A stretch of DNA of 64,000 nucleotides. Origin: Hyphomicrobiales bacterium (lineage in GTDB: Bacteria > Pseudomonadota > Alphaproteobacteria > Rhizobiales > Rhizobiaceae). Shown here piece after piece: positions 6,092 through 23,714 of the stretch (positions are counted from its first letter, which is position 1; each line of letters opens with the position of its first letter). The translations under genes and the position numbers were made by a program. The DNA lies in the NCBI GenBank assembly GCA_900472605.1, contig UCJD01000049.1, positions 1-64,000 of the forward strand. The letters run 5' to 3'. Under the pieces are notes generated by a model that searched no databases, had not been told where the DNA came from, and saw nothing but the letters and a program-made list of their open reading frames with translations.

Positions 6092-6189
6092 GCTTTGCTG
6101 ATGACTTCGAGCGTTTGTTGAATCGCTTACCAACGTGATTCCGAAATTATCGGCAATCCATTGATCTATAATAGCTATTTTTGACGTGC

Positions 6190-6216
6190 GCGGCGGCCGG
6201 GGGTTCTGGCCGCCGC
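6190..6216. terminator. GC-rich hairpin between convergent genes
   Basis: GCGGCGGCC at 6190-6198 and GGCCGCCGC at 6208-6216 form a perfect 9-bp stem with a 9-base loop, between the stops of the acetyltransferase (+) and the small gene (-). There is a T-rich run (TATTTTTGACG) only on its left side, so termination on either strand would be imperfectly canonical. Confidence 0.5.
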
Positions 6217-6224
6217 AATGCGTA

Positions 6225-6386: not shown

Positions 6387-6582
6387 CCTTAGTCTCCAAT
6401 TCGTTGTGAGGGTTTTCGCGGAACGCGGATCGCGAGCCGGTCGCGATATCTGCTCCGTGGTCCAGACATATATGGGGATTGCCGGGGCCGGGTTCCAGAG
6501 AGGGCGGGTTGAAGCGAATTTGATGGCGTTGGCATGGAACTCATCGAGTCCTGCAGGTGTTTCCCTGCCAAAGGAGACCCGC

Positions 6583-7269: not shown

Positions 7270-7293
7270 CGACGCTATTCCATGGTGCTGAGG

Positions 7294-7905: not shown

Positions 7906-8064
7906 TCAAGGCGTCCTTGCTGTTCGTATGTCGACGCCTGCAAGTGCTGGCGGGACCCACCGATCTCGCATTGTCGCCCAGCCGTTGGCAACAGTATTTT
8001 CAGCGACCACTTCCCTTCCTCGGGCTTTCGGCCTTACACTGTTTGTCTATCTCCCGCTGGATGA

Positions 8065-8364
8065 ATGCTCATGCTGTGCAATAGGACAGTATCGCTTACA
8101 TCATTCGTCATCGCCGCCGCGATCGCGGGCCAGGCATCGCCGCTGTTGGCGCAGGAGAAAGCGGCCGGACGCACGCCGCCGGGCGCCATGATTTCCGTTC
8201 GCGACGTCATCAAGGTCAATCCGCACGACGGCGCGCTCGTCCCACCCGTCTTGTCCAATACCTGGTGGAACCGGATGGGGGCGGCGCAACAGCGCGTTGT
8301 CCAGCCTTCAGGACGCAACGGAGAGACTGTTCGGCACGCCAGCCCGGCCGATACGGCGCCGTAA
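8065..8364 (+). CDS. Putative short secreted protein, unknown
   Basis: A 99-residue reading frame whose first 30 residues look like a Sec signal peptide (MLMLCNRTVSLTSFVIAAAI then AGQASPLLAQ), cleaved after LLAQ. The remainder is short, Arg/Pro rich and not recognised. The ribosome-binding site is weak; the start could also be the ATG at 8071. Because a truncated gene lies immediately downstream on the other strand, this may be a relic of a once longer gene. Confidence 0.4.
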   Translation: MLMLCNRTVSLTSFVIAAAIAGQASPLLAQEKAAGRTPPGAMISVRDVIKVNPHDGALVPPVLSNTWWNRMGAAQQRVVQPSGRNGETVRHASPADTAP

Positions 8365-8412
8365 CATCAGCGCCCAATGGCGTTGCTGTGGCCTGCTTGG
8401 ATCGGCGTTTCG

Positions 8413-8595
8413 CTATTCCGTCGGTTTCTGGATCGGGAACTGAAAGTTCATCCCCGCGAAGTTTTGCCAGTGCGGCGCGCCGGCCCCGGCGTGCCACACG
8501 GTGTATTGCGGCTCGATGAAGGCGTTCATGGTTATGCGCTTTTCGAGCGGGATCACCTTGCCGACACCGAAGCCGATGCGGGCATCGTGCGCGGG
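8413..8595 (-). pseudogene. C-terminal fragment of an outer-membrane beta-barrel protein
   Basis: The minus-strand frame ending at 8413 encodes GFGVGKVIPLEKRITMNAFI and onward to ...WQNFAGMNFQFPI. Alternating hydrophobic residues, aromatic girdle residues and a final strand ending in FQF are typical of the last strands of an outer-membrane barrel. There is no signal peptide and no upstream barrel: the frame is cut by the inverted repeat that begins at 8596. The intact barrel gene at 10950 is a different family member. I read this as the remnant of a gene whose first three quarters were deleted. Confidence 0.55.
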
Positions 8596-8623
8596 AGTAC
8601 GCAACGGTAAACGGAAGCGTAAA
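8596..8623 (-). promoter_or_regulatory. Regulon element copy A-left (points at the barrel remnant)
   Basis: On the minus strand this reads TTTAC, seven bases, then TTTACCGTTGCGTACT. It is one arm of a perfect 19-bp inverted repeat (8596-8614 with 8650-8668). It points into the truncated barrel gene, leaving essentially no leader, as expected if a deletion has joined the element to the gene's 3' part. Confidence 0.7.
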
Positions 8624-8649
8624 CGTGCGCCCACGGGCGTAACGGCGGG

Positions 8650-8670
8650 CCGTTTACCGTTGCGTACTTA
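8650..8670 (+). promoter_or_regulatory. Regulon element copy A-right (upstream of the gene at 8732)
   Basis: CCGTTTACCGTTGCGTACTT on the plus strand, the exact mirror of copy A-left. It ends 62 bases before the ATG at 8732. A CTCTAGT at 8688-8694, also found at similar distance after copy C, might be part of a promoter. The upstream TTTAC of the other copies is not conserved here. Confidence 0.65.
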
Positions 8671-8731
8671 CGCCAGCGGATCGCTGTCTCTAGTCTTGCT
8701 CGATTACCCTTGCGCGGAGGTCTTCACGACG

Positions 8732-9022
8732 ATGAGCAGGCAGGGATCGGCAGGCGGAACGACCAGCGACACGGCGCGACGCGGGCTGGCGCGGTTGATG
8801 CTGAAGCTGCCCGCCTTGCGCGCGGGATTGCAAGACGCTGCATCGCAGTCGCGTGCCCTGGACGAACTCTTCGAAGCTTACGAAATCGCCGCCGTTGCGC
8901 TTGAGACATTTCGCAGAGGTGGTGACCGGGTGCGGACCGGCGAATATGAAGGGCTCTGTACCGGGATCGAGGATGATGTGACCCAGCACATCCTACGCAC
9001 GAATTCACCTAAACGAAAATGA
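8732..9022 (+). CDS. Small hypothetical protein, first gene after regulon element A
   Basis: A 96-residue protein (MSRQGSAGGTTSDTARRGLA...) rich in Ala, Leu, Arg and Glu and probably all-helical, without signal peptide or membrane segment. GGAGG lies 11 bases before the ATG. No family recognised. It lies just upstream of the regulator at 9147 on the same strand, separated by 124 bases that hold an 11-bp inverted repeat, and its own promoter region carries the shared regulon element, so it is probably part of the sulfatase locus. Confidence 0.55.
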   Translation: MSRQGSAGGTTSDTARRGLARLMLKLPALRAGLQDAASQSRALDELFEAYEIAAVALETFRRGGDRVRTGEYEGLCTGIEDDVTQHILRTNSPKRK

Positions 9023-9036
9023 CGCGCGCCTGTCTC

Positions 9037-9106
9037 GAAAACTATCATTTATTGGGTTTGTTAGCGTTTCGTGTTGCAACTTAATGTTAAGTGAGTGATA
9101 GTTTTC
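9037..9106. promoter_or_regulatory. Inverted operator pair upstream of the winged-helix regulator
   Basis: GAAAACTATCA at 9037-9047 and its exact reverse complement at 9096-9106 flank a 48-base AT-rich spacer; the similarity continues degenerately inward (ATCAYTYAYT on each arm). The pair sits about 40-110 bases before the ATG at 9147. It differs from the TTTACCGTTGCGTACTT element, so a second DNA-binding protein or autoregulation by a different mode is possible. Confidence 0.5.
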
Positions 9107-9146
9107 CTGTTCTGCTTTAGTGACCAGTGCGTACAGGGGGCGGCCC

Positions 9147-10847
9147 ATGAGTGCTGAAGTACACGGTGAGGGAGCATGTGAAGTCAGCCTTGACGACGCC
9201 GAGGCGGAGCTGGAACGGCTTCTCGCGGATAGTCGCTTCAGGGTATCGGACCGGCAGCGCGACATATTGCGCTATCTCGCCGAACGACGGTTTGGCGGCT
9301 GCACCGAAGGCATAAAAGCCTACTCTATCGCGATAGACGTGCTCGGGCGCTCCAGCAATTTCGATGCATCCATCGATCCGATCGTGAGGATCGAGATCAG
9401 CCGTCTCAGAGCGGCGCTCGATGGCTACTATGCCGCGTTCGGCGCCGAACTCGGCGTCTCCGTCCATATTCCAAAGGGCAGCTACGTCGCGCTGTTTCTG
9501 CAGAGCGATGTCAGCGGCAGCGGACAGGTTTCGCCATCGCCGCTTGCTCATCGTCCGGATCCAACACTTGCCGATGGGGCGCTGGAAGGCCCCGCCATGG
9601 TGGCGGCGTCGCTTCCGCCAACGTTGCGACGGTGGATGCCGGCGGCTCTGTGTGTCGCTCTGCTCGTTCTCGCTGGCGTGGCAGCTTGGAAATCCATCGA
9701 TCGTCCCATCGTGACGCTGAAGCCCGCCGTGACCATTCTTATGAGCGCAGCCTCGCCTGACATGGCGGGCGAGGCAAGCGTCGCCCGGGACACGCTGCTT
9801 ACCGCTCTCTCCGCGTTCAACACGATCGTGGTGACAAGGCCCGGCTCGCCGACGCAGCCGGAGCGCCGAGGCTACGAGGTCGATCTCAAATATTATGCGG
9901 ATAGCGATGATCGCTCGGTGTGGTGGCAGGTTGTCGATAGCGCGAGTGGCACATTGCTCAAATCGGGGTTGGAGCGGGTCGAGACCGAGGGTAAGGAACC
10001 GGCCACGATCAGGCTCGAAATCGCCGGCGCGGTGGCACGGCAGATTGCGTCGTCGCGGGGCGTGATCAACGCGCTGGAGGCGAGATCTGCTCCCCCAGAT
10101 GCTTTGGGAAATGCCTGCGTTGCCAAGGCAGAATTCATGCTCGACGGCAGTGAGAGCGGCGGCGGACAGGGGTTGCCAGGATGCCTGGAGCGGACGCTGG
10201 CGGGGGATCCCGATGACGCCGATACGACCGCGATGCTGGCACGGCTCTATGCCCGCGATACGGCAACGGTCCCGCAGGCCCTCGACATGGCGAAGGCTGC
10301 GGTGTCCATTGCGCCACTTTCAGATCGCGCGCAGGGCGCGCTGATGGTGGCGCGCTTCGCCAACGGACGGCTGGACGCGGCGATCGATGCCGGAAACAGG
10401 GCGATGGCGCTTAATCCTAACAATTCGGCGAATGCTGCGTCGCTCAGCCTGGTGTTGTTTGCCGCCGGTTACTTCAAGGCGGCGAACGATCTTGCGCGGG
10501 AGGCTGTCGCGATGGAGGAAACGCCGCCGCGCGACGCCTCGCTGGTGATCGCGCTGGACGCTTACCGGAACGGGCGGTGGTCGGAGGCGTCCCTGTCGGC
10601 CGAGCAGGCCGTCGGCAACGATATGCTGACGCTTGCCATTCGCGTGGCCGCGCTTGGCGAGCTCGGCGCGGATGGCGCGAGGCAGCGTCTTGGAGAGGCG
10701 GCGCCGGACCGGGTGGCTTTCGTTGCCGCATTCCGGCAGGCGGCGAAAATGGCACAGCTTCGGCCTGAACTCGTCGCCAGCCTGGAGACGGGACTTGGAA
10801 AAGCGGATGCTAGTTTCGAGGCCGTAGCGAGCATCGCGGGGCAGTGA
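9147..10847 (+). CDS. Membrane-spanning winged-helix/TPR regulator (CadC-like architecture)
   Basis: A 566-residue protein. Residues about 15-115 (RVSDRQRDILRYLAER ... DPIVRIEISRLRAALDGYY ... VHIPKGSYVALF) have the order of a winged-helix DNA-binding domain ending in a beta-hairpin wing, similar to the CadC/OmpR C-terminal type. A single transmembrane helix follows at about 163-184, and the C-terminal two thirds contain TPR-like helical pairs (about 340-470). This is a one-component sensor: DNA-binding in the cytoplasm and a periplasmic sensor. I choose ATG 9147, with CAGGGGG six bases upstream, over the GTG at 9120. It is the natural candidate to bind the repeated element of this locus. Confidence 0.75.
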   Translation: MSAEVHGEGACEVSLDDAEAELERLLADSRFRVSDRQRDILRYLAERRFGGCTEGIKAYSIAIDVLGRSSNFDASIDPIVRIEISRLRAALDGYYAAFGAELGVSVHIPKGSYVALFLQSDVSGSGQVSPSPLAHRPDPTLADGALEGPAMVAASLPPTLRRWMPAALCVALLVLAGVAAWKSIDRPIVTLKPAVTILMSAASPDMAGEASVARDTLLTALSAFNTIVVTRPGSPTQPERRGYEVDLKYYADSDDRSVWWQVVDSASGTLLKSGLERVETEGKEPATIRLEIAGAVARQIASSRGVINALEARSAPPDALGNACVAKAEFMLDGSESGGGQGLPGCLERTLAGDPDDADTTAMLARLYARDTATVPQALDMAKAAVSIAPLSDRAQGALMVARFANGRLDAAIDAGNRAMALNPNNSANAASLSLVLFAAGYFKAANDLAREAVAMEETPPRDASLVIALDAYRNGRWSEASLSAEQAVGNDMLTLAIRVAALGELGADGARQRLGEAAPDRVAFVAAFRQAAKMAQLRPELVASLETGLGKADASFEAVASIAGQ

Positions 10848-10876
10848 TTTACGGGCGCATTTACCGTTGCGTACTT
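10848..10876 (+). promoter_or_regulatory. Regulon element copy B (upstream of the outer-membrane channel gene)
   Basis: TTTAC at 10848, seven bases, then TTTACCGTTGCGTACTT ending at 10876. The element starts on the base after the regulator's stop codon and ends 73 bases before the ATG at 10950. The two TTTAC units are 12 bp apart, about one helical turn. Confidence 0.75.
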
Positions 10877-10949
10877 GCGACGGCGAATGGGGGGATTGAA
10901 GGTGCCAGGGCAGCCGAGAGGCCGGTCGGGGACGAATGAGGGGAAGAGC

Positions 10950-11927
10950 ATGAGACTGAGATTTTCGACCGGAGCGCTTGTTGCCGGCGCATTGATGCTT
11001 GCCTGCACTCAGATGGCCACTGCTGCCGAACGGGGAGCCGGCTTCTACCTGCTCGGTTCCAAGGGGCCGGCCGCGGGCATTCTGCCGCCACCGGGCGTTT
11101 TCCTGCAGAACGACATCTGGATTTACAACGGCGACCTCGGCGGCGGCAAGCAGCTCCCGACCGGCGGCCGCGTCGCCGTCGGCGTCGAGGGCAAGGTGGT
11201 TCTGGCCGCCCCGACGGTTCTCTGGGTTCTCCCCGAAGAGGTGATGGGCGGACGGCTTGGGCTCGGCGTGACCATCCCCGTTGGCTGGCAGGAGACCATT
11301 GCCGATCTCACGCTTTCAGGTGCGGGCGGCGGCGTGCTTTCCGGCGCCACGAAGGACACGGTCTTCACCATCGGCGATCCGCTCGTCAGCGGCACGCTCG
11401 GCTGGGACGCCGGCAACTTCCATTGGAGCACGGGCGTTCTCGTCAACATCCCGATCGGCGACTATCAGGACGGCGAGATTTCGAATATCGCCTTCCACCG
11501 TTGGGGCGCCGATGTCAGCGCTGCCGGAACATGGCTCGATCCGGAGATAGGGCTCGATCTCTCGGCAGCGATCGGCGTGACCTTCAACGGCGAGAACCCG
11601 GACACGAACTATCGCACCGGCACCGAATTCCATTTCGAATGGGCCGCCGTTCAGCACTTCAACGAGCAGTTTGATGCGGGTCTGGTCGGCTACTATTACG
11701 ACCAGCTGACAGGGGATAGCGGCGAGGGCGCGATTGGTCCGTTCAAGGGACGGGTGGCCGCGATCGGCGCGACGATCGGCTGGAACTTCAAGGCTGGCGA
11801 ACTGCCAATCTCGGCCCGGATCAAGTATTTTCACGAGTTCGCCGCCGAGAACCGCGCGGAGGGAGATTCCGTGTTTTTGACGATCTCCATGCCGCTCTCG
11901 ATCACCAAGCCGGTGGCGGTGCAGTAG
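10950..11927 (+). CDS. Outer-membrane channel, Phenol_MetA_deg / SphA-like family
   Basis: A 325-residue protein starting at ATG 10950 behind GAGGGG. It has a Sec signal peptide (cleavage after about ATAA, residue 25), then a sequence full of alternating amphipathic strands. The N-terminal segment GAGFYLLGSKGPAAGILPPP followed by GVFLQNDIWIYNGDLGGGK matches the 'MetA-pathway of phenol degradation' barrel family, used for uptake of hydrophobic or aromatic compounds. A substrate channel beside a periplasmic sulfatase could admit a sulfated ester. It is monocistronic, convergent with the HAD gene. Confidence 0.8.
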   Translation: MRLRFSTGALVAGALMLACTQMATAAERGAGFYLLGSKGPAAGILPPPGVFLQNDIWIYNGDLGGGKQLPTGGRVAVGVEGKVVLAAPTVLWVLPEEVMGGRLGLGVTIPVGWQETIADLTLSGAGGGVLSGATKDTVFTIGDPLVSGTLGWDAGNFHWSTGVLVNIPIGDYQDGEISNIAFHRWGADVSAAGTWLDPEIGLDLSAAIGVTFNGENPDTNYRTGTEFHFEWAAVQHFNEQFDAGLVGYYYDQLTGDSGEGAIGPFKGRVAAIGATIGWNFKAGELPISARIKYFHEFAAENRAEGDSVFLTISMPLSITKPVAVQ

Positions 11928-11948
11928 GGCGGTCATCGCCACTTTGGA

Positions 11949-12943
11949 TCACTGGTCGAAGGCGTAAATCTTCTTCCAGTCGCTCTTCATGTCAACGACG
12001 AGCCAGTTGCGACGTTCGGCTTCATCCAGCGCCTTGTCGAGCTTGCCGAAAGCTGATTGGCGGTCATAGGCATATTCGCGGGTCCCATCGGTATGGTGGA
12101 CGATGAGGGCAAAGCCCGGCTTCCTGGCTGTGACCCAGCGCAGCATTTCATAATCGCCATCTGAATTGCCGGCCACGAAGATCGGCTTGCGGCCGATGAA
12201 CCTGTTGATGCCGGAAGGTTTGCCGGGGCCATCATCGATGAAATCGATCTTCGGCAGGCGCTTCAGCACCGGCACATCGCCGACGACGGCATACTGCGTG
12301 GCGATGGTGCTGCCGACAACCTGTTGCGCCGGGATGCCATAGAGCTTTTCCGTCACCGGTCGCATGAACTCGACGCCGCCGCCGGAGACGATGTAGGTCG
12401 CGAAACCGTTGGCGCGTAAATAATCCAGTAGTTCGCGCATCGGCAGAAAGGTCATCTCCGTGTAGAGCCGGCCGGATCTCGGGTGCTTCGCGGTCGCGAA
12501 CCAGTCGGTCACGATCTTTGCGAACTCATCCGTCGTCATGCCCGCGTGCGTTGCCATGCCGAGTTCGACGATACCCTTCTCGCCGCCTCGGGCGATTCCC
12601 TTCAAATCGCCATTCAAGATGCTGGCGAAGGGTTCCTTCGTCTTCCATTCCGGATGCTCGGGTGCCAGCGCCTTCACCCGGTCGAGCATGAAGCCGAGCT
12701 GGATATAGAAGGGCTGTTCAGTCCACAGCGTGCCGTCATTGTCGAAGACGGCGATACGATCATCAGGAGCAACGAAACCATCGCTGCCCTCGGTGGTGGT
12801 GGCTTTCACGAAATCCATGATCCTTTGCCGGGCGGGCGTGTCGTTCCACGAGGCCAACGGTTCCTGCGCGAGCGCGGGCGCAGCGAGCAGCGCGACTGCG
12901 AGGAGCAAGGTGCACAGGGCGCGTGACAATGTTTCCATCATGT

Positions 12944-12947
<4 letters not shown>
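11949..12947 (-). CDS. Periplasmic HAD-superfamily phosphatase
   Basis: A 332-residue protein with a signal peptide (SRALCTLLLAVALLAAPALA, cleaved near residue 25). HAD motif I is FDNDGTLW (nucleophile Asp), motif II is IVSGGG, and motif IV is AGNSDGDYEML. These are the residues of the phosphoserine-phosphatase type branch. It would hydrolyse a phosphomonoester in the periplasm. Its ATG overlaps the FGE stop (12944-12947), so it is translationally coupled with the FGE gene. Earlier in-frame codons up to 13070 are inside the FGE gene and are not used. Confidence 0.85.
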
Positions 12948-13921
<974 letters not shown>

Positions 13922-13931
13922 GCCTTCCTCC

Positions 13932-15344
13932 TCAACGTTGCTTCACGGCTTCGACGTCGGGCAGCACCCATTTCTTGGCGAAGAATTCTTCGGTTGGCCC
14001 ATAGGCCCGGAACATCAGCTCGAACTTGCGCTTGCCATCCGTCGGGATCCAGTTCGCATCCTTGCCCTTTGGTGCTTTCGGACCAAAGTAGAGATCGATC
14101 GAGCCGTCCTGGTTTTTCGCGAGCTCTGGGATTTGCGATGAGCGGCTGGCCCGTGGCATGTTCTTGATAAGCGCATGGGTCTCACGGTCGTATGCGGTCA
14201 CCGACCAGTATTGCTGCACGGGAACGTTGGCCGGCACCCGCAAGCGATACGACTTGCCGCCCTCGAAGTCGCGGCCGTCCTTGTCACGAATCGAGATCGA
14301 GTAGAATTGGCCGGCACCCAGTCGTTTGATGCCGATATAGGCGTAGTGATACGCAACGCCGCGGTCATCCACCGGATAGGCATCTGGCTCCTTGAAGTCC
14401 GCGGAAGCCGCCTTTACCAGGCTTGGATAGGCCGGCAGTGTCCAGCGGCTCCTGTCGGAAAAGAACGGCGGAAGGCCTGCATCATACCTGGCAGCGAGAA
14501 GGGCATGGGCTTCCTTCGCAGCCCTGTCGAGCAGGGGCTGCGTGCGTGCGCCCTTGGCGAATGGCTTGCCTTTCTCGATGCCTATTGTCCTCAGCTTGTC
14601 GATCATGATCTTGTCGCGCTCGATCCACGGCTCCTCCTGGACGACCCTGTCGAGATTGTCGAAGAAGCTCGCATCCCATTTGATGGTGCTATCGAACATG
14701 ATGTCCTTCACGTCGGAGAACACGGTCTCAGGAGGGTTTTGAGCCGCCGACAGAGGATAGACCTTCATCTTCCTGCCGTAGGCGATGGAGGCTTCCACGT
14801 CCGCATCGGAATGGCTGGCGAGGTTGGAGCGCAGGAGCATGTAGCCGCCGTAGACCTCCGACTTCAGTGGCGTGAAGCCATCGGGAACGGCCCCCGTGAA
14901 GTCGGGAGGCAGGATCACGAACTTGGCGCCCTTGCCCTTGTCGGCGCCGAGCAATCCCGCATCCTCCAGCGGAATCTGCCATGCCGTCACGATGTTGCCG
15001 TTGAACGAGGCGCCGCCATCGGCTGCGGGTAGGTCTAGAACGACAGGTCCGTCCTTCGTGTTGAAAAAGGCCATGAAGTAGAGTGCATCGGGATTGGGCG
15101 TCAGCGTCTGGTTCTTCCAATCCAGCGGATGTCCCCAATAGATGACGCCACCGACCTTGCCGGGTGTCTTGGTGAGCATTTCCTGGCGCATGAGATCATA
15201 GTTGACGGCAGGCATGCCCCAGATCACCGCCTCAACGGCAGCGCGCTCCAACTCCGCGTCGAAAATCTTGCGGACGCGGTTGTCGGCCGCCGCGAGAGGC
15301 GTGGCGAGAAGGAGCGTGAAGAAGGCGATCGCCAGAAATCTCAT
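13932..15344 (-). CDS. DUF1254/DUF1214 periplasmic protein
   Basis: A 470-residue protein with a Sec signal peptide (MRFLAIAFFTLLLATPLAAA). The N-terminal part (about 40-165; AVEAVIWGMPAVNYDLM, LTPNPDALYFMAFFNTKDGP) is DUF1254; the C-terminal part (about 340-450; NVPVQQYWSVTAYDRETHAL, DGSIDLYFGP, WIPT) is DUF1214. The two domains usually occur together in exported proteins whose chemistry is unknown. It is the first gene of a DUF1254-FGE-HAD transcription unit; the FGE gene follows after 10 bases. Regulon element C lies 58 bases upstream of its start. Confidence 0.88.
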   Translation of the reverse strand: MRFLAIAFFTLLLATPLAAADNRVRKIFDAELERAAVEAVIWGMPAVNYDLMRQEMLTKTPGKVGGVIYWGHPLDWKNQTLTPNPDALYFMAFFNTKDGPVVLDLPAADGGASFNGNIVTAWQIPLEDAGLLGADKGKGAKFVILPPDFTGAVPDGFTPLKSEVYGGYMLLRSNLASHSDADVEASIAYGRKMKVYPLSAAQNPPETVFSDVKDIMFDSTIKWDASFFDNLDRVVQEEPWIERDKIMIDKLRTIGIEKGKPFAKGARTQPLLDRAAKEAHALLAARYDAGLPPFFSDRSRWTLPAYPSLVKAASADFKEPDAYPVDDRGVAYHYAYIGIKRLGAGQFYSISIRDKDGRDFEGGKSYRLRVPANVPVQQYWSVTAYDRETHALIKNMPRASRSSQIPELAKNQDGSIDLYFGPKAPKGKDANWIPTDGKRKFELMFRAYGPTEEFFAKKWVLPDVEAVKQR

Positions 15345-15402: not shown

Positions 15403-15431
15403 AAGTACGCAACGGTAAATCAGCGCGTAAA
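15403..15431 (-). promoter_or_regulatory. Regulon element copy C (upstream of the DUF1254-FGE-HAD unit)
   Basis: On the minus strand: TTTAC, seven bases, TTTACCGTTGCGTACTT, ending 58 bases before the ATG at 15344. A GCCCACG element lies just upstream, as at copies A and D. The element fills the gap between the BatD stop (15433) and the DUF1254 gene, marking a separate promoter inside a long run of minus-strand genes. Confidence 0.75.
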
Positions 15432-15432
15432 T

Positions 15433-16716
15433 TTACGCCCCGTGGGCGGGGTTTAGCGGCGGCAGCGGTGAAGCTGGGGGAGCGCGCAGGGGAGTGCTTG
15501 CTTGTGTAAGCACGGTTGCTGCCACCTTTCGGTCGAACGATTGCTCGCCGGTCGCGGCGAAAAGCGAAGCCTCCAGATCGCGAATGACGTCCTTTGCGAT
15601 GGCGCCGCGCGTGTCGCCCCAAGCATCCAGCGTGCGAAAACCCTCCGACATCGCCCAAGCCTGCAGGGCGGCATAGACCTCGGGAAGCGCCGCCGTCAGG
15701 ATCGTCTTGCGTAGGCGATGAAGGCGGAACCGGCGGGCGTTTCGCAGGCGGCCGATCGCGGCGCGGAGATGCCGCAGTGCTGCGGCAGGAAGGCGACGGG
15801 CGCTCCATGTGGCTGCGATGGCGGCTAGCGCCAGCAGGATCGCCAGCGAGAGTTTTCGCCTGCCTTCGAAAGTGGTGGATCGCGAGATTGGTTGCTGCGG
15901 CGCTATACCGTTGCGCGCGGCTGCTGCGGCCGCTTCGACCGACGTGGCGGGTAACATGGCAGCGGTCGCCGCTGCGGCGTCGATGTCGAACCAGGGGTAG
16001 CGGATCGCGGGCAGGACGAAGCTTCCGGCCTGCGAGACCGTATAGACGACCGTGTCGGTGCGCCGGCTGAGCATATCGCCTCTTGCCGCGGAGATGCCGT
16101 CTTCCAGCTTTGGCGGCTTGGCGTATTGCGCCAGTCCCGGCGCGTTCCCCGCCTGCACCGGCGGCATCAGCATCGCCTGCGTTTCCCGTGCGGTGATGGT
16201 GATGGTGCGGACCAGCGCATCGCCGACGTGCAGGCTTTTTGGATCGCGATCGAAAGACTGGGCGATCTCCAGCTGGTGGGCGGAAAATGGCATGCTGCCG
16301 TCGCCAAGACCTGTCACTTCGAAGTTCGTCGCCCCGGTGGAGACAGAAGCCTTTGCCGCCGCACCGCCGGACGAATAGGAGAACGCGATCACGATCGGCG
16401 GCACCGCAAAGGAACCCGCACGCTCCGGTACAATGGCGTATTGCCGGCGTATGCCTGTGAATTCGACGCCATCGATCGTCTGCGTGAGGTTGCTCGCGCG
16501 CTCCTCGGGAAGGGTGACGAGTGCGTCGGGGATGTCGAACAGCGGCAGTTGCGGTGGGGAGGTGAAGAAGCCGGGCGCAAAGACGTCGACGGTAAGGTGA
16601 AGCTGTTGCCCGGGGACGAGCTGGCCGCCTTCCTCCAGCGATGCGCGGGCGAATGGCTCCGCCGCGACAGCCGGCAGCGAGACGAGTATAGCAAGAAGCG
16701 CCAGCACTGTTCTCAT
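15433..16716 (-). CDS. BatD-like membrane-anchored protein
   Basis: A 427-residue protein: signal peptide MRTVLALLAILVSLPAVAAE, then beta-rich periplasmic domains typical of BatD (PGQQLHLTVDVFAPGFFTSP; the YAIVPERAGSFAVPPIVI strand), a transmembrane helix around residues 295-315 (LAILLALAAIAATWSA) and a cytoplasmic tail. Bat proteins work with MoxR ATPases in a membrane-associated complex of poorly defined, chaperone-like role. It is the last gene of the cluster; its start overlaps the preceding gene's stop by four bases. Confidence 0.82.
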   Translation of the reverse strand: MRTVLALLAILVSLPAVAAEPFARASLEEGGQLVPGQQLHLTVDVFAPGFFTSPPQLPLFDIPDALVTLPEERASNLTQTIDGVEFTGIRRQYAIVPERAGSFAVPPIVIAFSYSSGGAAAKASVSTGATNFEVTGLGDGSMPFSAHQLEIAQSFDRDPKSLHVGDALVRTITITARETQAMLMPPVQAGNAPGLAQYAKPPKLEDGISAARGDMLSRRTDTVVYTVSQAGSFVLPAIRYPWFDIDAAAATAAMLPATSVEAAAAAARNGIAPQQPISRSTTFEGRRKLSLAILLALAAIAATWSARRLPAAALRHLRAAIGRLRNARRFRLHRLRKTILTAALPEVYAALQAWAMSEGFRTLDAWGDTRGAIAKDVIRDLEASLFAATGEQSFDRKVAATVLTQASTPLRAPPASPLPPLNPAHGA

Positions 16717-18242
16717 GGCGCTCGTCTCTCCGCCTCAATGGCGAACTTCCGGGCCATGAGGTCGGCCGGGCTCGCCTGGATGTTCTTGATCCACATTTCG
16801 GAGGTCTGTTCGGCCATGTCGATCTGTCCGGCCTTGCCCTTCTTGCCCTTGTCGTCGAACTGGATGCTGTCGGGTTTCTCGTTCGGTTGCTCCGGCTGGC
16901 TTTCCTCGTCCTGCTGCTGCTTGAGAAGCGTTCTCGCCAGCGCAAGGTTTGCCTGCGCCTCCGGCCAGTCCGGGCGTTTGGCGAGAGCGTTGCCATAAGC
17001 GGTGATGGCATCCTCGAACTGGGCGAGATGCATCAGCGCGTTCGCCTGATCGAACCAGCCTTCCTCGGTGTCGGAGAGCGCGAAGGCATTGACCGCTTCC
17101 TGGAAGCGGCCGGCGTGGTAGAACGCCGTGCCTTTCCACATCGGATCGTGGAAAAGGGTGGCGGCGGCAGCGAACTCGCCGTGCTCGAAGGCAAGCCGGC
17201 CCTGTTGGTCCGCCGTCAGCCACATGTCCGCGAGACTGCCTGCTTGGGCTGATGGCGGCGAGAAGAATGGCAGGACGAAGATGAGCACCGCGACCTTCAT
17301 CACCCAGCCGCGCCGAAACGAGAGCGCGAAGAAGAGGGCGACGGGTATAATCAGCCACCAGCCGAGATCGCGCCAGCGATCTCCATCCGATGCCGTCTGC
17401 TGGGTGAAATTCGTCGCGACGCGCTCAGTTATCCATCGAATATCGGCATCGTCGTCGGTGATGGTCGCGACAGCGGCGCCGGTTTGCCTACCGAAGTCCT
17501 TCAGCGCGGTGAGATCGAGCTTCGAGACGCCGGCCGTGCCGCCGCCATTCGCCGACTTGATAGCGCCCCCTTGCTCCGTGCCGACGCCGAGTACCACGAG
17601 GCTGCCGATGTCGCTGGCAGCCTGTATGGCCTGCTCTTCCGCGCCGTCGGTCATCAGCAGGATCGTGCCCGACGCGCCATCCGATCTCAGCAGCTGGTCG
17701 GCGAGGCGAAGGGCCGCTGCCGTGTCCTTGCCGGGCTTCGGCATCAGCGGTGTCGCCAGCGCGTCGGTGTAGCTCTGGATGAGGGCCGCGTCGTCCGTCA
17801 GCGGCACGACGAGATGCGCCGTGCCGGAATAGGCCACGACGGCCGAGCGGGCACCCGGTCGGGCGGCAAGGATGTCGTGGATTTTCAGCTTCACGCGCTC
17901 GATCCGGCTTGGGGTGATGTCGGTCGCGTCCATGGAGGGCGAGAGATCGACGGCGATGACGAGCGAAGCGGTGTCGGAGACGAATGGCGGCGGCTCGCGC
18001 TGCCACGTTGGTCCGGCGACACCGATGACCGCGATCGTCAACACGAGCGCGAGAAGCCAGGCCGGTTTCATGTGGTTGCGATGATCGGGCTCGACAATCA
18101 GGCTTTCCATCAGGTGTGGCGCGATCATCCCTGTCCATCGCCCCCGGATGTCGCCCGCGCGCGCCGAGAGCCAGACAATCAGAGGCGGGAGCAGCAAAGC
18201 CAGCAGCCACCAGGGGCGGAGGAAGTGAAAATCTGACATCAT
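16713..18242 (-). CDS. BatB/BatC fusion: membrane vWA domain plus TPR
   Basis: A 509-residue protein. Two N-terminal membrane helices (about 8-25, 60-78) precede a von Willebrand A domain with an intact metal-ion site (VIAVDLSPSMDATD, the DxSxS motif, about residue 95). A third helix lies near 300-325, and the C-terminal part (about 350-450) has TPR units (FYHAGRFQEAVNAFALSDTE; AYGNALAKRPDWPEAQANLALA) and a Gln/Glu-rich tail. BatB and BatC are often separate genes; here they form one chain. Overlaps both neighbours by four bases. Confidence 0.85.
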   Translation of the reverse strand: MMSDFHFLRPWWLLALLLPPLIVWLSARAGDIRGRWTGMIAPHLMESLIVEPDHRNHMKPAWLLALVLTIAVIGVAGPTWQREPPPFVSDTASLVIAVDLSPSMDATDITPSRIERVKLKIHDILAARPGARSAVVAYSGTAHLVVPLTDDAALIQSYTDALATPLMPKPGKDTAAALRLADQLLRSDGASGTILLMTDGAEEQAIQAASDIGSLVVLGVGTEQGGAIKSANGGGTAGVSKLDLTALKDFGRQTGAAVATITDDDADIRWITERVATNFTQQTASDGDRWRDLGWWLIIPVALFFALSFRRGWVMKVAVLIFVLPFFSPPSAQAGSLADMWLTADQQGRLAFEHGEFAAAATLFHDPMWKGTAFYHAGRFQEAVNAFALSDTEEGWFDQANALMHLAQFEDAITAYGNALAKRPDWPEAQANLALARTLLKQQQDEESQPEQPNEKPDSIQFDDKGKKGKAGQIDMAEQTSEMWIKNIQASPADLMARKFAIEAERRAP

Positions 18243-19234
18243 GCGGCCGTCCTCCGCCGTCGCTCGATCAAGCCCACGATGCCGGCAAGAGCATACCAGG
18301 CGCCGAGGAGCGCCATGGCCGCCGCCAGCGGCCAGTGAAACAGCTCGATCCGGGGCCGCCAGGAGAGCTCCTTCTGATCTTCGGGGGTGATCGCGTCGAG
18401 CACGTCATAGATCGCCGCGAGTTCCTCCTGGCTGCCGCCGAAGAAGTAGCGGCCACCGGTATCGGAGGCGATCTTCTGCAACGTCGCGACATCGAGCTTG
18501 TCTTCACCGGTGGCGGCGGGGTCGCCGATGCCGACAGTGTGGACGACGATCGCCTTGTCCTTGGCGATTTCCGCTGCCTTCAGCGGTGGCATCCTGCTTG
18601 CCGTGTCGTTGCCGTCGGTCAGGACGATCATCACCTTCTCGGGAACGGACGTCTTTTCGAACATGCGGAGCGCAAGGCCAAGCGTATCGCCGAGCGAGGT
18701 TCTGGGCCCGGCGATGCCGGGCAACAGGTTGTCGATCATCGAGCGGACCAGCGCGTGATCCATGGTGAATGGCGCCAGAGGGTAGGGGGCGTCGCCGAAG
18801 GCGATCAGGCCGATCCTGTCGCCCGCACGCCTGGCTACAAAATCGGAGACCACGCTTCGCACCGCATCGACGCGTGCCTGCGTCGCCCCATCGGGCGTGC
18901 GGAAATCCTTCGTCTCCATGGATTGCGAGAGATCGAGCGCGAGCAGGATATCGCGCTGCGGTTCATGCTTCTCGATCGGCGGCTCGACGAATTGCGGGCG
19001 TGCGAGCGCCAGCACGATCAGGACCCAGGCCAGCGCCTCGACCACGGCTTGCGGCCACGAGCGGCGCGCGATCACCGACCCCTCGGTCGGATCGATGCCA
19101 GCGGCTTGCGCCACCTGATCGAAGAAGGGCAGGCGGATCGAGGCGGAAACTTCGCGGCGTGGCGGCAGCAGCCACCAGACGAGAAGCGGCAGCGGGAGAA
19201 GGATCAGCAGCCAGGGCAGGTCAAGGCGATACAT
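18239..19234 (-). CDS. BatA-like membrane vWA protein
   Basis: A 331-residue protein: an N-terminal helix (LPWLLILLPLPLLVWWLLPP), a second near residue 60, a vWA domain with MIDAS motif LLALDLSQSMETKD and the later VLTDGNDT, and a C-terminal helix (WPLAAAMALLGAWYALAGIVG). It should sit in the inner membrane with the vWA domain on the periplasmic or cytoplasmic face according to topology, forming a complex with BatB and MoxR. Its stop overlaps BatBC; its start overlaps the DUF4381 gene by 14 bases. Confidence 0.87.
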   Translation of the reverse strand: MYRLDLPWLLILLPLPLLVWWLLPPRREVSASIRLPFFDQVAQAAGIDPTEGSVIARRSWPQAVVEALAWVLIVLALARPQFVEPPIEKHEPQRDILLALDLSQSMETKDFRTPDGATQARVDAVRSVVSDFVARRAGDRIGLIAFGDAPYPLAPFTMDHALVRSMIDNLLPGIAGPRTSLGDTLGLALRMFEKTSVPEKVMIVLTDGNDTASRMPPLKAAEIAKDKAIVVHTVGIGDPAATGEDKLDVATLQKIASDTGGRYFFGGSQEELAAIYDVLDAITPEDQKELSWRPRIELFHWPLAAAMALLGAWYALAGIVGLIERRRRTAA

Positions 19235-19763
19235 GATGCCTCTCGATCCACCGCCGCGCGGCCGCGATCATCTCATCTCCGCTGTTCAACGCGAGTGTGT
19301 CGAGGGTTCGCCTGTCGCGATATTCACTGTCGGCCAGCAGGGCCTCGAGCGCCCGATCCGCCTCGTCCTTGGATGCGTGCTCGACAAAGGCGGCCCAAGG
19401 CCTGCCCGTCATCGAGGCGACGTCGGCGCGAGGCCAGGCCGCCAGCGCGGTGCGCTTGATCAACTCGGCAAGCGTACGCAAGGCTTCGGTTCGAGACGAT
19501 GGCGCGTGCATGTTTTCTTGAACGGCATTCAGCAGGCGCAGTGCTTCGCGGCGATAGGCATTGCGGCGATAGTTGCGCAAGGCGACGGCGATCCAGGCGA
19601 TGAGGGCGCAGGCGAGGATGCCGGCAACGGCGACCCAACCCCAGGTCTGCGGGAACCAGGATATGGGCGCTGGGTCGACGATGTCGTGCAGGCTGCGCAG
19701 CGCGGATTCAGTCGCGGGATCGAGCTTCGGGGCCGGGTCCATCAGCGCCTCCGTTGCCGCCAC
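19221..19763 (-). CDS. DUF4381 membrane protein of the MoxR/Bat cluster
   Basis: A 180-residue protein with the DUF4381 layout: N-terminal LHDIVDPAPISWFPQTWGWV, one transmembrane helix (about residues 46-67) and a cytoplasmic helical C-terminus with RREALRLLNAVQE. The position between DUF58 and BatA genes is the standard one for this family. It is thought to be an adaptor in the membrane complex, without known activity. Overlaps its neighbours on both sides (22 bases with DUF58). Confidence 0.82.
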   Translation of the reverse strand: MAATEALMDPAPKLDPATESALRSLHDIVDPAPISWFPQTWGWVAVAGILACALIAWIAVALRNYRRNAYRREALRLLNAVQENMHAPSSRTEALRTLAELIKRTALAAWPRADVASMTGRPWAAFVEHASKDEADRALEALLADSEYRDRRTLDTLALNSGDEMIAAARRWIERHHVSP

Positions 19764-20692
19764 GCCGATTGCTCCAGCAAGCGGCGGAGCTGTGGGGCGG
19801 TTTCTTCAGCAGCCGAGACCGGCAGCATGGGCAGGCCTAGCTCCAGCTGCCAGGCGCGCAACTCCCGTCCGCGCTCCCGTGCGAAGCTGTCGATCGCACC
19901 GCGAACAGAGCGTTCACCGAAGGAAAGCTCCGCCTGCAGGTCGCCACCGCTGACGACAATCTCGCCCGATTTCGGAAGCTCCAGCAGAAAGGGATCGTAG
20001 ATGAGCAGGCAGATGACATCGTTGTTGGCGGAGAGCCGCAACAACGTGTCGCGGGTGATGGCATCGTGGCCGTTCAGGTCGCTGGCGAGAATGATGAGGT
20101 TGTCATGGTGCGCGATGTTTTCGGCGCGCTGCAAGACATCGTTGAGAGCCTCCGGCGAAGGCCTTGTGGCGTAGGTGGCGCAAAGGGCCTCGTTCTTTCT
20201 CGATATCCTGTCGGCAAGCGCGATCACGGCGTTGCGGCTGCGGTGCGGCTTGATCTCGTCAATCCCATCGTCGCCGAAGACGAAACCGCCGATGCGATCG
20301 CCGGAGCCCAGGATACGCCAGGCACAGAGCATGGCGGCTTCCGCTGCCGCGACCGATTTCATGGCGCGGCGGCTGCCGAAGAACATGTTGATGCGCTGGT
20401 CGACAAGAAGCAGAGCCGGTCGTTCCTTCTCCTCGCCATAGATCCGCACCACCGGCTTGCCGGTTCGCGCCGTGACGCGCCAGTCGATGGAACGGATGTC
20501 GTCGCCGGGGAGATAGTCGCGCAGTTCCTCGAAGATCAGGCCGCGACCGCGCATCGACGATTGCATGCGCCCGGCAAGCTGTTGATGGCTGGCGGTTTTC
20601 TGCACGAACGAGAGATCGCGGGCACGGGCTTCGAGCGCGACCAGCTGCTCCGTCGTCGCATGGATGCCATCGCTTGTCGTGCCCGGTTTCAT
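19742..20692 (-). CDS. DUF58-domain protein
   Basis: A 316-residue soluble protein containing the DUF58 hallmark GLIFEELRDYLPGDDIRSID followed by WRVTARTGKPVVRIYGEEKERPALLLVDQ. DUF58 resembles a degenerate vWA domain and is almost always adjacent to a MoxR ATPase, as here. It has no signal peptide. The start overlaps the MoxR stop by four bases (20689-20692). Confidence 0.88.
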   Translation of the reverse strand: MKPGTTSDGIHATTEQLVALEARARDLSFVQKTASHQQLAGRMQSSMRGRGLIFEELRDYLPGDDIRSIDWRVTARTGKPVVRIYGEEKERPALLLVDQRINMFFGSRRAMKSVAAAEAAMLCAWRILGSGDRIGGFVFGDDGIDEIKPHRSRNAVIALADRISRKNEALCATYATRPSPEALNDVLQRAENIAHHDNLIILASDLNGHDAITRDTLLRLSANNDVICLLIYDPFLLELPKSGEIVVSGGDLQAELSFGERSVRGAIDSFARERGRELRAWQLELGLPMLPVSAAEETAPQLRRLLEQSAWRQRRR

Positions 20693-21666
20693 GAAACGGC
20701 CACCAGTGAGATGATCCGATCGATCACCTGATCGGCGCTCGTGCTCGATGCATGTGCGTCGTAGGAGAGGATGAGCCGGTGGCGGAAGACGTCATGAACC
20801 ACGGCTTTGACGTCATCGGGCGTGACATAGTCGCGGCCCTTGAGCCAGGCATAGGCGCGCGAGACCTTGTCGATGCCGATCGCCCCTCGCGGGCTGACGC
20901 CGACCTGCAGCAGCCTGGCGAGATCCTTGTCATAGCGATCAGGATAGCGCGTGGCGAAGACGAGTGCGACGATGTATTTTTCGACCGGTTCGGACACGGT
21001 GACGGCGCCGATTTCCTTGCGGGCATCGAAGACGGCCTGCGGATCGAGCCTCTCCTGGGGTGTGGGCGAAGCGATCCCGTCTACCGCGTTTTCCTCATCC
21101 CGGTTGAGGCGCATGATCGCGGCCTCGGACGTCTCGTCGGGATAGCCCACCTCGACATGCATCAGGAAGCGGTCGAGCTGGGCTTCAGGAAGCGGGTAGG
21201 TGCCTTCCTGTTCGATCGGGTTCTGGGTCGCCATCACCATGAAGAGTTCGGGAAGGGGATAGCTCTTGCCGCCCACCGTGACCTGCCGCTCCTCCATTGC
21301 TTCCAGCAGCGCCGATTGCACCTTGGCCGGCGCGCGGTTGATCTCGTCGGCAAGGATCAGGTTGGCGAAGATCGGGCCCTGCTGAAACGTGAACGCGCCC
21401 TTTCCGGCGTCCGAGACATAGATTTCCGATCCGGTGATATCGGCGGGCAGCAGATCAGGCGTAAACTGCACGCGCGATAGCTCGGCTTGAAGATTTTTTG
21501 CCAGGCTCTTGATCGCGCGTGTCTTTGCCAGGCCCGGCAGGCCCTCGACAAGCAGATGGCCGTTGGCCAGAAGGCCGAGCAGCAGCCGTTCCACCATGGC
21601 GTCCTGGCCGATGATGGATTGGCCGATGCGCTGGCCAAGCGCAAGGATATCGTCACGTGCCGTCAT
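20689..21666 (-). CDS. MoxR-family AAA+ ATPase
   Basis: A 325-residue AAA+ protein with the MoxR form of Walker A (VEGLPGLAKTRAIKSLA, about 37-53), Walker B and following motif (LILADEINRAPAKVQSALLEAM) and sensor 1 (VMATQNPIEQEGTYPLPEAQLDRF). MoxR proteins act as ATP-driven chaperones that help insert metals or cofactors or assemble protein complexes. It follows the sulfatase gene on the same strand after a 67-base gap with a strong hairpin, and starts the MoxR-to-BatD cluster. Confidence 0.93.
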   Translation of the reverse strand: MTARDDILALGQRIGQSIIGQDAMVERLLLGLLANGHLLVEGLPGLAKTRAIKSLAKNLQAELSRVQFTPDLLPADITGSEIYVSDAGKGAFTFQQGPIFANLILADEINRAPAKVQSALLEAMEERQVTVGGKSYPLPELFMVMATQNPIEQEGTYPLPEAQLDRFLMHVEVGYPDETSEAAIMRLNRDEENAVDGIASPTPQERLDPQAVFDARKEIGAVTVSEPVEKYIVALVFATRYPDRYDKDLARLLQVGVSPRGAIGIDKVSRAYAWLKGRDYVTPDDVKAVVHDVFRHRLILSYDAHASSTSADQVIDRIISLVAVS

Positions 21667-21733: not shown

Positions 21734-23368
21734 TTACTTCGCTCCTGCGGGTGTCTGGTCCAGCGAACGCATCAGCGCCTCGATCATCTGGTCGACGCTG
21801 AAGCTCGCCACGCGCTGGCTTGGCGGATATTCGCGGAAGGTCTGCAGGAAGGGCGCCACGCGCCAGACGCCGTATTGCAAGATGTAGGCGTTCTTGGCGT
21901 ACCAGTCGTAATACTGATCGGAGACGATGTCGGCCCGCTCGTAGGGGTCCATGCGAAGGTTGAAGAATTTCGGCGCTCTCAGGCAGGTGAAGGGATTGGC
22001 CCAGACCTGCAAGCCGCCGGGTTCTCGCTGTTCGCAGAAGACCAGCTTCCAGTCATTGTAGCGATAGGCGACGAGATTGCCGTCATCGTCGAAATAATAG
22101 AAATCGGATCGCGCCGACTTGTCGTCCTTGCCGGTCAGGTAGGCCAGCTGGTTGTAGCCGTCGAGATGGACCTTGAACTGGTTTCCGCCAATCGTCGTGC
22201 CCTTGGCGAGCTTGTCCTTGATATCCGCGTCGCCTGCCGCCGCGAGCAGGGTCGGGAACCAGTCGAGACCGGATACCATCTGGTTGGAGACTTCGCCGGC
22301 CTTGACGTGGCCCGGCCAGCGAATGAGCGCCGGCACGCGGAAGGCGCCCTCCCAGTTGGTGTCCTTTTCGCTGCGGAACGGCGTCGTCGCGGCGTCCGGC
22401 CAGGACCACTGGTTCGGCCCATTGTCGGTGGTGTAGACGACGATCGTGTTGTCGGCGATCTTCAGATCATCGAGCGCTTTCAAGAGCTTGCCAACGTCAC
22501 CGTCGTGCTCGATCATGCCGTCGGCATAATCGTTGCCCTTCATGCCGCTCTGGCCCTTCATGCTGTCGCGCACATGGGTGAAGGCGTGCATGCGCGTCGT
22601 GTTCATCCAGGTGAAGAACGGCTTGCCGGCCTTGGCCTGGCGGTTGATGAAATCGACGGCGGCATCGGTCGTCTCGTCATCGATGGTTTCCATGCGCTTG
22701 GCATTCAGCGCACCGGTGTCCTCGATCTTGCCGTCAGCCGACGCCTTAAGCACGCCGCGCGGCGAGTTGGTGCGGACGAATTCCTCGTCGTCTGAAGGAT
22801 AGTAGGGCCGCTCCGGCTCTTCCTCTGCATTCAAGTGGTAGAGGTTGCCGTAGAATTCGTCGAAGCCATGCTTGGTCGGCAGGAATTCGTCGCGGTCACC
22901 CAGGTGGTTCTTGCCGAATTGTCCGGTGGCGTAGCCAAGCGGCTTGAGGGCCTGGGCGATCGTGATGTCGCGCGCCTGCAGGCCGACGGTGGCGCCGGGA
23001 ATGCCAACCTTGCAGAGTCCGGTCCGAAGGCACACCTGGCCGGTGATGAAGGTCGAGCGACCAGCGGTGCAGGAGTTCTCCGCGTAATAGTCGGTGAACA
23101 TCAGGCCTTCCTTGGCGATGCGATCGATGTTCGGCGTCTTGTAGCCGAGCACGCCGAAGGAATAGGCGCTGATATTGGTCTGGCCGACGTCGTCGCCGAA
23201 GATGACCAGGATATTGGGCTTGGATGTGTCTTGTGTAGCCGCAGAATCCGCGGCGGGCGCGGGCGTTGCTTGCTGGGCTCTGGCCGGAGAGAGGAATGTG
23301 GTCGATGTCAGCGCCATCGCGACCGCGACCGTTGCCGAGAACAGCTTCTTTGGGAGGAAGTTTGTCAT
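21734..23368 (-). CDS. Secreted Cys-type sulfatase (arylsulfatase family)
   Basis: A 544-residue protein with a signal peptide cleaved after SPARA (about residue 31). Alkaline-phosphatase-superfamily residues are present: metal ligands D59-D60 (VIFGDDVG), the modification site C100-T-A-G-R104-S (Cys to be converted to formylglycine), K153/H155 in FGKNHLGD, and D315-N316 in YTTDNGPNQ. CxAxR is the less common variant of the CxPxR signature. It should hydrolyse a sulfate ester in the periplasm. It heads the minus-strand series ending with the FGE gene, and regulon element D lies 126 bases upstream. Confidence 0.92.
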   Translation of the reverse strand: MTNFLPKKLFSATVAVAMALTSTTFLSPARAQQATPAPAADSAATQDTSKPNILVIFGDDVGQTNISAYSFGVLGYKTPNIDRIAKEGLMFTDYYAENSCTAGRSTFITGQVCLRTGLCKVGIPGATVGLQARDITIAQALKPLGYATGQFGKNHLGDRDEFLPTKHGFDEFYGNLYHLNAEEEPERPYYPSDDEEFVRTNSPRGVLKASADGKIEDTGALNAKRMETIDDETTDAAVDFINRQAKAGKPFFTWMNTTRMHAFTHVRDSMKGQSGMKGNDYADGMIEHDGDVGKLLKALDDLKIADNTIVVYTTDNGPNQWSWPDAATTPFRSEKDTNWEGAFRVPALIRWPGHVKAGEVSNQMVSGLDWFPTLLAAAGDADIKDKLAKGTTIGGNQFKVHLDGYNQLAYLTGKDDKSARSDFYYFDDDGNLVAYRYNDWKLVFCEQREPGGLQVWANPFTCLRAPKFFNLRMDPYERADIVSDQYYDWYAKNAYILQYGVWRVAPFLQTFREYPPSQRVASFSVDQMIEALMRSLDQTPAGAK

Positions 23369-23714
23369 GACGGCCTCCCCACGGATGGATCGTTCAACAT
23401 TGCGGTCTCCCTTGTGCCGGGCGGCCGGTGCCGCCGGATCTCGATCGTCGTCAGCCGACGCGTGGGGAGCCTTTCGCTTTATGCGGGCGCGGGTAAGTAC
23501 GTAACAGTAAATGGCGGTGTAACGGGCGCGTAAACGGCAGGCCGCGTGGGCGGCATTTTACGCCAATGCCGAAGCCCGGGGGCTGAGTTTCACGATATGC
23601 ATCCCGGATGCAACACAGCCTCGGGACAGCTTAGGCAGCTAAGGCAAGCGCAGCTACGATGCCCGTTTTAGTCGTCGAATGCGCGCAATTGCCGTCTAAC
23701 AAGCTGGTGTCTAA
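23369..23714. other. Divergent intergenic region (346 bases) with regulon element D
   Basis: Between the divergent sulfatase and the gene at 23715. It holds regulon element D (23495-23523), an upstream GCCCACG-type block and further TTAC units on the minus strand spaced 11-12 bp, and a short palindrome CTTAGGCAGCTAAG around 23630-23643. I see no open frame of interest. Confidence 0.6.
23495..23523 (-). promoter_or_regulatory. Regulon element copy D (upstream of the sulfatase)
   Basis: On the minus strand: GTTAC, seven bases, then TTTACTGTTACGTACTT, two differences from the consensus TTTACCGTTGCGTACTT. It is followed after 126 bases by the sulfatase ATG. More TTAC units lie upstream at 11-12 bp steps, suggesting tandem binding. 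Confidence 0.7.

Follow-up and report, generated by a model that had tools for sequence, protein, structure and literature searches.

The protein encoded immediately behind a conserved small gene in the window (the whole stretch of 64,000 nucleotides that was analysed) is probably a CadC-like, membrane-anchored one-component activator whose winged helix binds the operator TTTACNGTWRCGTACTTNC and whose targets are sulfatase and envelope genes. Computation provides the predicted architecture of the protein, the sequence, position and orientation of the operator, the co-occurrence of operator and regulator across genomes, and a sister regulator with a variant operator; the coordinates of the features are collected in Table 1.

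The regulator gene named in a preliminary description of this DNA is real, and its translation gives 566 residues plus a stop codon. A GTG further upstream, at 9120, is open as an alternative start, but the matches to close relatives set in with the first residue encoded from 9147. Among the 225 relatives found in named records, 80 were kept, nearly all from Rhizobiales (Rhizobium, Neorhizobium, Phyllobacterium, Brucella/Ochrobactrum, Aureimonas and others); one locus (L161), on a contig of a MAG labelled Acidobacteriaceae and possibly mis-binned, carries a typical Rhizobiales cluster with sites. The full-length model, built with a 54-sequence alignment, has a mean pLDDT of 89 and a pTM of 0.71; it orders the chain as winged helix, low-confidence linker (residues 123-155), membrane helix, alpha/beta domain and TPR-type helices, and the architecture of this model is of a known kind. 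The winged helix, membrane helix and TPR repeats had already been read from the sequence, but the alpha/beta domain had been overlooked.

In the full model, the winged helix consists of helices 15-27, 35-49, 58-64 and 79-102, the last of which is the predicted recognition helix, and of a hairpin (104-107/116-119). The domain modelled in isolation (pLDDT 93.8, pTM 0.86) was compared with solved structures by VIA, in which rows 1-29 are all OmpR/PhoB-type DNA-binding domains; the best is PrrA (Z 8.6, rmsd 3.4, 88 aligned), and the others include SaeR (Z 8.3, rmsd 3.0, 86 aligned), GlnR (Z 8.3, rmsd 2.7, 85 aligned), PhoB (Z 7.8, rmsd 3.4, 87 aligned) and the Escherichia coli CadC DNA-binding domain 5ju7 (Z 7.3, rmsd 3.5, 86 aligned). 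These Z values are mostly below 8, near or below the tool's middling level, and the family matched is consistent; Foldseek also ranks the OmpR/PhoB-type family first, with weak E-values (best 0.016, probability 1.00). At the level of sequence the link is weak: the hhalign comparison with the OmpR-type domains of this genome is merely suggestive (E 4.5e-4, probability 33%), Pfam PF00486 (Trans_reg_C) does not match the window regulator at E up to 1, and this family is not among the best 25 of the 32 Pfam families for 54 regulator members (E up to 0.1). When the genome is scanned with Trans_reg_C, 15 other places pass and the place of the regulator is not among these. The N-terminal domain, which searches of Pfam, NCBIfam and PDB by sequence do not recognise, is an OmpR/PhoB-type winged helix by predicted fold, recognised through modelling and structural comparison, and the winged helix of the preliminary description is borne out.

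The single transmembrane helix proposed earlier is also found in the model, where it follows the DNA-binding domain and corresponds to a segment that is hydrophobic by sequence. It places the predicted TPR domain on the far side of the membrane helix from the winged helix, in agreement with what had been proposed. The Pfam TPR matches of the window regulator itself are sub-threshold; TPR_19 is matched in 47 of the 54 aligned members, and these matches, the profile matches of the regulator to solved TPR proteins and the helices of the model together uphold the TPR assignment. Foldseek, run on the whole model, places four CadC periplasmic domain entries at the top of its list (E 1.1e-6 to 3.3e-6), and as CadC is thus the best match of the extracytoplasmic half, the protein is called a CadC-like one-component regulator, with a predicted winged helix that Pfam's model misses. 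The alignments to CadC span 304-312 columns at 15% identity, with low TM-scores of 0.24-0.40 over the whole length and rmsd of 17-18, so that the orientation of the domains differs; CadC is not among the best 50 VIA rows for the whole model, which are other kinds of TPR protein. In the model, an alpha/beta domain followed by a helical TPR domain is present, the arrangement that marks the CadC subgroup. Two cysteines, C324 and C346, are present without exception in a diverse alignment of 20 regulators. The earlier argument that a TPR sensor points to a protein or peptide partner rather than a small ligand is not supported; the extracytoplasmic half resembles CadC, for which pH and, through LysP, lysine are the inputs described in PMC3096576.

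Table 1. Features of the window that bear on the regulator, its candidate operators and its predicted targets.
Feature	Positions	Strand	Basis or remark
Remnant (54 codons) of envelope-type gene	8416..8577	-	Divergent from regulator unit
Operator copy, 1 mismatch	8595..8611	-	Faces gene remnant
Operator copy, exact	8653..8669	+	62 bases before small gene
Conserved small protein, 96 aa	8732..9022	+	No Pfam/NCBIfam match
CadC-like membrane regulator	9147..10847	+	ORF translation and predicted model
OmpR/PhoB-type winged helix, residues 15-119	9189..9503	+	Full and isolated predicted models, fold comparison
Predicted membrane helix, residues 158-184	9618..9698	+	Model
Predicted extracytoplasmic alpha/beta domain, residues 194-301	9726..10049	+	Model, Foldseek
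TPR-type helical domain, residues 306-552	10062..10802	+	Model, Pfam, profile matches
Operator copy, exact	10860..10876	+	Before outer-membrane-type gene
Phenol_MetA_deg family protein, predicted target	10950..11927	+	Start chosen; ATG at 10887 also open
HAD-like hydrolase, predicted target, DUF1254-FGE unit	11949..13070	-	Start uncertain, overlaps FGE
FGE-sulfatase family enzyme, predicted target	12944..13921	-
DUF1254/DUF1214 protein, predicted target	13932..15344	-
Operator copy, exact	15403..15419	-	58 bases before DUF1254 gene
BatD, vWA+TPR, vWA, DUF4381, DUF58 and MoxR genes, predicted targets	15433..21666	-	Behind sulfatase gene
Sulfatase, predicted target	21734..23368	-
Operator copy, 2 mismatches to exact element	23495..23511	-	126 bases before sulfatase gene

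Five copies of the element TTTACCGTTGCGTACTT lie in the window at up to 3 mismatches, against 0.01 expected, and four of the five precede a gene that is read from the same strand as the copy. The first base of the copy behind the regulator is 13 bases beyond the end of the stop codon; this copy points at the next gene, of the outer-membrane type, and lies 73 bases before it if the chosen start is taken. The fifth copy faces what is left of an envelope-type gene: over 54 residues the remnant shares 87% identity with the C-terminal end of a gene that is intact in a relative (L116), and it still keeps its operator. The window together with 25 other stretches contains 76 element matches at up to 3 mismatches and 1 match to the reversed pattern, and the 80 named loci contain 263 at up to 2 mismatches against 4 for the reversed control, with at least one site in 72 of the 80. 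Five of the eight loci without a first-type site have the variant described below and three (L162, L179, L191) have neither; in L134, the single site is distant from the regulator and upstream of a sulfatase. Genome-wide, at up to 3 mismatches, the signal is weak by itself (20 matches versus 12 for the reversed pattern), and the comparisons between genomes used stricter element patterns. Two other candidates were rejected: an inverted repeat, GAAAACTATCA...TGATAGTTTTC, in the gap between the small gene and the regulator, considered as a second operator, is not conserved in 8 aligned relatives, and an operator common to the wider regulator family is not upheld by more distant loci, 3 of 15 of which (L044, L054 and L055, the last a regulator remnant) have a related core. 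Searches of open-licence literature with the letters of the element and of the domain motif returned no paper.

The link between the regulator and TTTACCGTTGCGTACTT made in the preliminary description gains backing from comparative genomics. Among the 148 genomes of the genus, all 50 holders of a subfamily A regulator have 4-20 sites (mean 10.2), whereas the 98 genomes without it have a mean of 0.35 sites and 2 of them have at least 4. Holders are those above 600 bits to the A1 profile, plus the split gene of G027, with a threshold set after the gap between 527.6 and 668.7 bits had been seen; nine first-look candidates were scored per genome, so that members could be missed among the 98 non-holders, and the six genomes with sites and no close regulator were re-searched with all candidates scored. 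One of the two exceptions, G032 (10 sites), has an apparent truncated regulator remnant amid its sites, as judged by eye; in the other, G160 (4 sites), no close regulator was found among all candidates, and the same is true of G136 (3 sites) and G016 (2 sites). G030, with 3 sites, has just a C-terminal regulator piece, beside a cluster with a single remaining site, and G009 has broken regulator pieces and zero sites. The association of holders with sites has a P value of 1.5e-37; since the genomes are related by descent, their counts are not independent of one another and this value overstates the independent evidence. Linkage is not a sufficient explanation of the pattern: of the 131 sites in 15 fully listed holders, 62 are either on contigs other than those of the regulators or separated from the regulators by 30 kb or more. 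Some of the sites in G160 (L219-L221) and G136 (L223) precede sulfatase-like genes. A second subfamily A regulator, 44% identical, is encoded on contig C76 of G000 (about 80218-82278, L075) and has its own small gene and nearby sites.

A sister subfamily, B, is represented by loci on contig C69 of the window genome (L080), in R. johnstonii 3841 (L187) and in L192; its neighbours encode an outer-membrane-type protein, MoxR, DUF58 and Bat proteins, and also a sulfatase in L187 and L192. The first operator is not found in these three loci at up to 2 mismatches, and a variant, GTWACNGTWACAWNCTYNC, occupies the positions equivalent to those of the first operator: some 470-535 bp ahead of the regulator match, shortly behind that match and, in L187, L188 and L192, in front of the sulfatase. 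In 29 loci the variant has 33 matches against 0 for the control, a count in which the G032 stretch enters twice and which takes in some sites of the first type that fit the pattern as well. At least two exact variant sites are present in 7 of 9 B-like holders (338-528 bits to the A1 profile, plus contig C69 of the window genome) and in 2 of 139 other genomes (G011, G029), and exact variant sites occur in none of the 49 genomes with subfamily A alone; because the pattern was derived from the B loci, the window's own genome included, the 7 of 9 fit partly by construction, which is not true of the separation from subfamily A. The variant is absent from the B-like holders G090, which has a partial gene, and G114. 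Seven variant sites lie outside the holders: four have a member of a third subfamily of the same regulator no more than about 310 bp downstream, and one is about 3 kb downstream of a third-subfamily regulator; the remaining two (L249, L251) are without such a neighbour in the stretch. Within the recognition helix, all 4 aligned B proteins carry E at residue 89, where the other 47 compared have S, A, T, N, G or L; position 93 of the same helix also separates subfamily B, as do positions outside the helix. The operator CGTACTT pairs mostly with S, A or T at residue 89, and the four aligned B proteins pair E at this position with CAWNCTT; such matched variants of regulator and operator offer a route to the determinants of specificity.

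The shape of the site was examined in 208 sites with dissimilar flanks, to which an initial 342 were reduced. Positions left free by the search pattern are conserved too, with C at +18 (74%) and at +5 (55%). Upstream there is a half-site, KWAC, whose first base is at -11 in 60 of the 208 sites, against 0-19 at the other 32 starts counted, and within -13 to -10 in 75, against 4 within -30 to -27. Downstream, A-N3-T is found at +38 or +39 in 135 of the 208 (other registers: mean 18.5, maximum 36) and, split by register, reads as a TAnnnT-type -10. The half-site is strict in just the 75 sites mentioned and the -10 signal is degenerate. A -35 hexamer placed 17-18 bp upstream of this -10 would coincide with the CTTNCN end of the site (operator positions 14-19); the -35 consensus is CTTGAC. 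The fixed distance of a -10-like element from the putative operator suggests activation, and the geometry would fit an activator that overlaps the -35 region.

The Bat, DUF1254 and sulfatase components, put forward earlier as possible partners of the TPR sensor, appear better explained as targets, since candidate operators precede their units. In relatives, the arrangement of operators recurs despite changes in gene order; in L061, L066, L071 and L072, for example, where FGE is not preceded by DUF1254, a site lies directly in front of FGE. In the loci sampled, 327 distinct ORFs follow sites with at most 1 mismatch: the small protein is the commonest (67), followed by FGE (51), sulfatase (45), DUF1254 (20), an MscS-type channel (17), Phenol_MetA_deg (16), a second barrel-like family (14), a glycine-betaine binding protein (OpuAC, 11), a third barrel-like family (10), MoxR (9), a DUF900 hydrolase (8), DUF3300 (5), groups of 4 comprising an SLT transglycosylase with SBP, an alkyl sulfatase and DUF2092, and then smaller groups. 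Clusters were identified as FGE, sulfatase, DUF1254, MoxR or small protein from those of their members that are also mapped genes, and the remaining ones were named by Pfam from one representative each, "barrel-like" being our reading of two families without Pfam matches. The ORFs were picked mechanically, with repeats dropped only if the first 60 residues were identical, and some are in the wrong frame (for example L067_11673m, L175_9314m and L223_11220m); as the sampled loci centre on regulators, the counts are not genome-wide. Most of the named families are presumably envelope proteins or proteins thought to mature them. The presence of two unrelated kinds of sulfatase in one predicted regulon suggests that sulfate esters or amphiphiles are part of the cue. 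The alkyl-sulfatase gene directly behind operator sites in L073 (about 16332-18464) is of the metallo-beta-lactamase type according to Pfam, and the situation is similar in L146, L164 and L231. A second sulfatase/MoxR/Bat/FGE cluster, with four sites, lies on contig C70 of G000 (4500-24400, L074), with no regulator match within the stretch fetched.

Taken as a mechanism, the cytoplasmic winged helix would bind the 17-19 bp operator, often together with a half-site about 12 bp upstream. The 3' end of the operator would overlap the -35 region, with a TAnnnT-type -10 17-18 bp further on, so that housekeeping RNA polymerase would be recruited in one fixed orientation. Activation would be controlled by the extracytoplasmic half, made of the alpha/beta and TPR domains, in response to an envelope or periplasmic cue. 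The regulator would act on the two-gene unit that encodes it and the small protein, on the sulfatase/MoxR/Bat and DUF1254-FGE-HAD units and, at distant sites, on outer-membrane-type and other envelope genes. Physical binding, activation over repression and the topology are what we infer from these data.

The same element could be bound by the regulator acting mainly as a repressor that a signal lifts, since the predicted overlap with the -35 is a position that repressors use too and the regulator's own unit carries a site, as in negative feedback; this is unlikely given that the presumed -35 is a poor match to the consensus, which fits a promoter that needs an activator, and that the sites inspected all have the same orientation towards their gene. 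CadC itself is described as an activator (PMC5430869). It is rather improbable that another factor, such as an alternative sigma factor or a different regulator, reads the element while the membrane protein merely travels with the cluster. Binding by the regulator is proposed from comparative genomics, the sites inspected lie on the strand of the following gene with a promoter-like downstream element at a fixed distance, in the manner of sigma promoters, and G160 and G136 retain a few sites without a close regulator. The conserved core is nevertheless made of 17 contiguous bases, which exceeds the length of the -35 elements known for sigma factors. Against a passenger role also stand the unlinked sites of the 15 holders, the joint change of sister regulator and variant operator, and the third subfamily of regulator that adjoins 4 of the 7 stray variant sites.

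The small protein might itself read the operator in place of the winged helix, and several features could be cited in its favour: it is conserved and uncharacterised, it is the commonest first ORF behind sites, and a homologue is encoded between the operator region and the regulator in 73 of the 80 loci, in subfamilies A and B alike (66 recognised by pattern and 7 by eye: L119, L137, L168, L172, L173, L174 and L189). This is nonetheless very improbable, as the regulator has a known DNA-binding fold and as the homologues, present in 109 of the 148 genomes, are more widespread than the first operator and occur in many genomes without sites, so that the small protein tracks the operator less than the regulator does. 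Four members scanned have zero Pfam or NCBIfam matches at E up to 1, and inspection of the sequence found no evident signal peptide or membrane helix. The window genome has four small-protein matches, and the three listed (C26, C76 and C69) are each directly upstream of a regulator paralogue. The earlier statement that the regulator is the only DNA-binding protein encoded in the 8.6-23.5 kb block is consistent with Pfam scans of 11 enzyme and envelope genes, an agreement that does not extend to the small protein, which is without a Pfam match. Our guess is that the small protein acts as a cytoplasmic partner or brake of the regulator.

With the regulator retained as the probable activator, a broader and speculative picture is possible, in which a Rhizobiales two-gene cassette, made of the small cytoplasmic protein and the CadC-like regulator, would sense sulfated amphiphiles or failed sulfatase maturation in the envelope and, through matched and diverging operators, switch on a programme of sulfatase production and envelope remodelling, with the small protein as a cytoplasmic brake or coupling factor. 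If this were true, the paralogous subfamilies of the cassette would amount to a naturally occurring set of orthogonal regulator-operator pairs. A family of DNA-binding domains that Pfam does not recognise gains a concrete candidate operator, regulon and promoter geometry, which makes this rhizobial class of membrane regulators testable by one gel shift and one deletion; a common control is proposed for sulfatase, formylglycine-generating-type enzyme and MoxR/Bat genes, and a conserved, uncharacterised small protein is brought to light. Among the matches listed from the open-licence literature, no title or abstract start appears to describe the operator, the regulon, the sister pair or the small neighbour.

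Several known systems combine similar parts. Regulators of the HilA/YgeH type are soluble proteins that carry an OmpR-type winged helix and TPR in one chain, as does the present regulator, in which, by contrast, the modelled membrane helix and alpha/beta domain separate the two parts and exclude it from the soluble class. ToxR/ToxS and VtrA/VtrC share with it a membrane-tethered winged-helix regulator beside a conserved small partner gene; their partners act through periplasmic components according to PMC9214523, whereas the small protein here is devoid of an evident signal peptide or membrane helix on inspection and the sensor half is of the CadC type. The closest comparison is with CadC, a ToxR-like membrane one-component activator of cadBA in Escherichia coli, in which an alpha/beta domain precedes a helical TPR domain in the extracytoplasmic part (PMC9214523). 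The modelled regulator likewise consists of an OmpR-type winged helix, a disordered linker, one membrane helix and alpha/beta then TPR domains, and its invariant cysteines recall, in a different place, the regulatory C208-C272 bond described for the extracytoplasmic half of CadC, where it serves as a switch (PMC3096576). It differs from CadC in the low identity of the Foldseek alignment, in a winged helix that Trans_reg_C does not recognise and in its candidate operator, which is long, specific and probably overlaps the -35, compared with the loose TTAxxxxT consensus reported for CadC in Cad1 at -153 to -113 (PMC5430869). It also differs in its predicted sulfatase and envelope regulon and in the conserved small gene that accompanies it.
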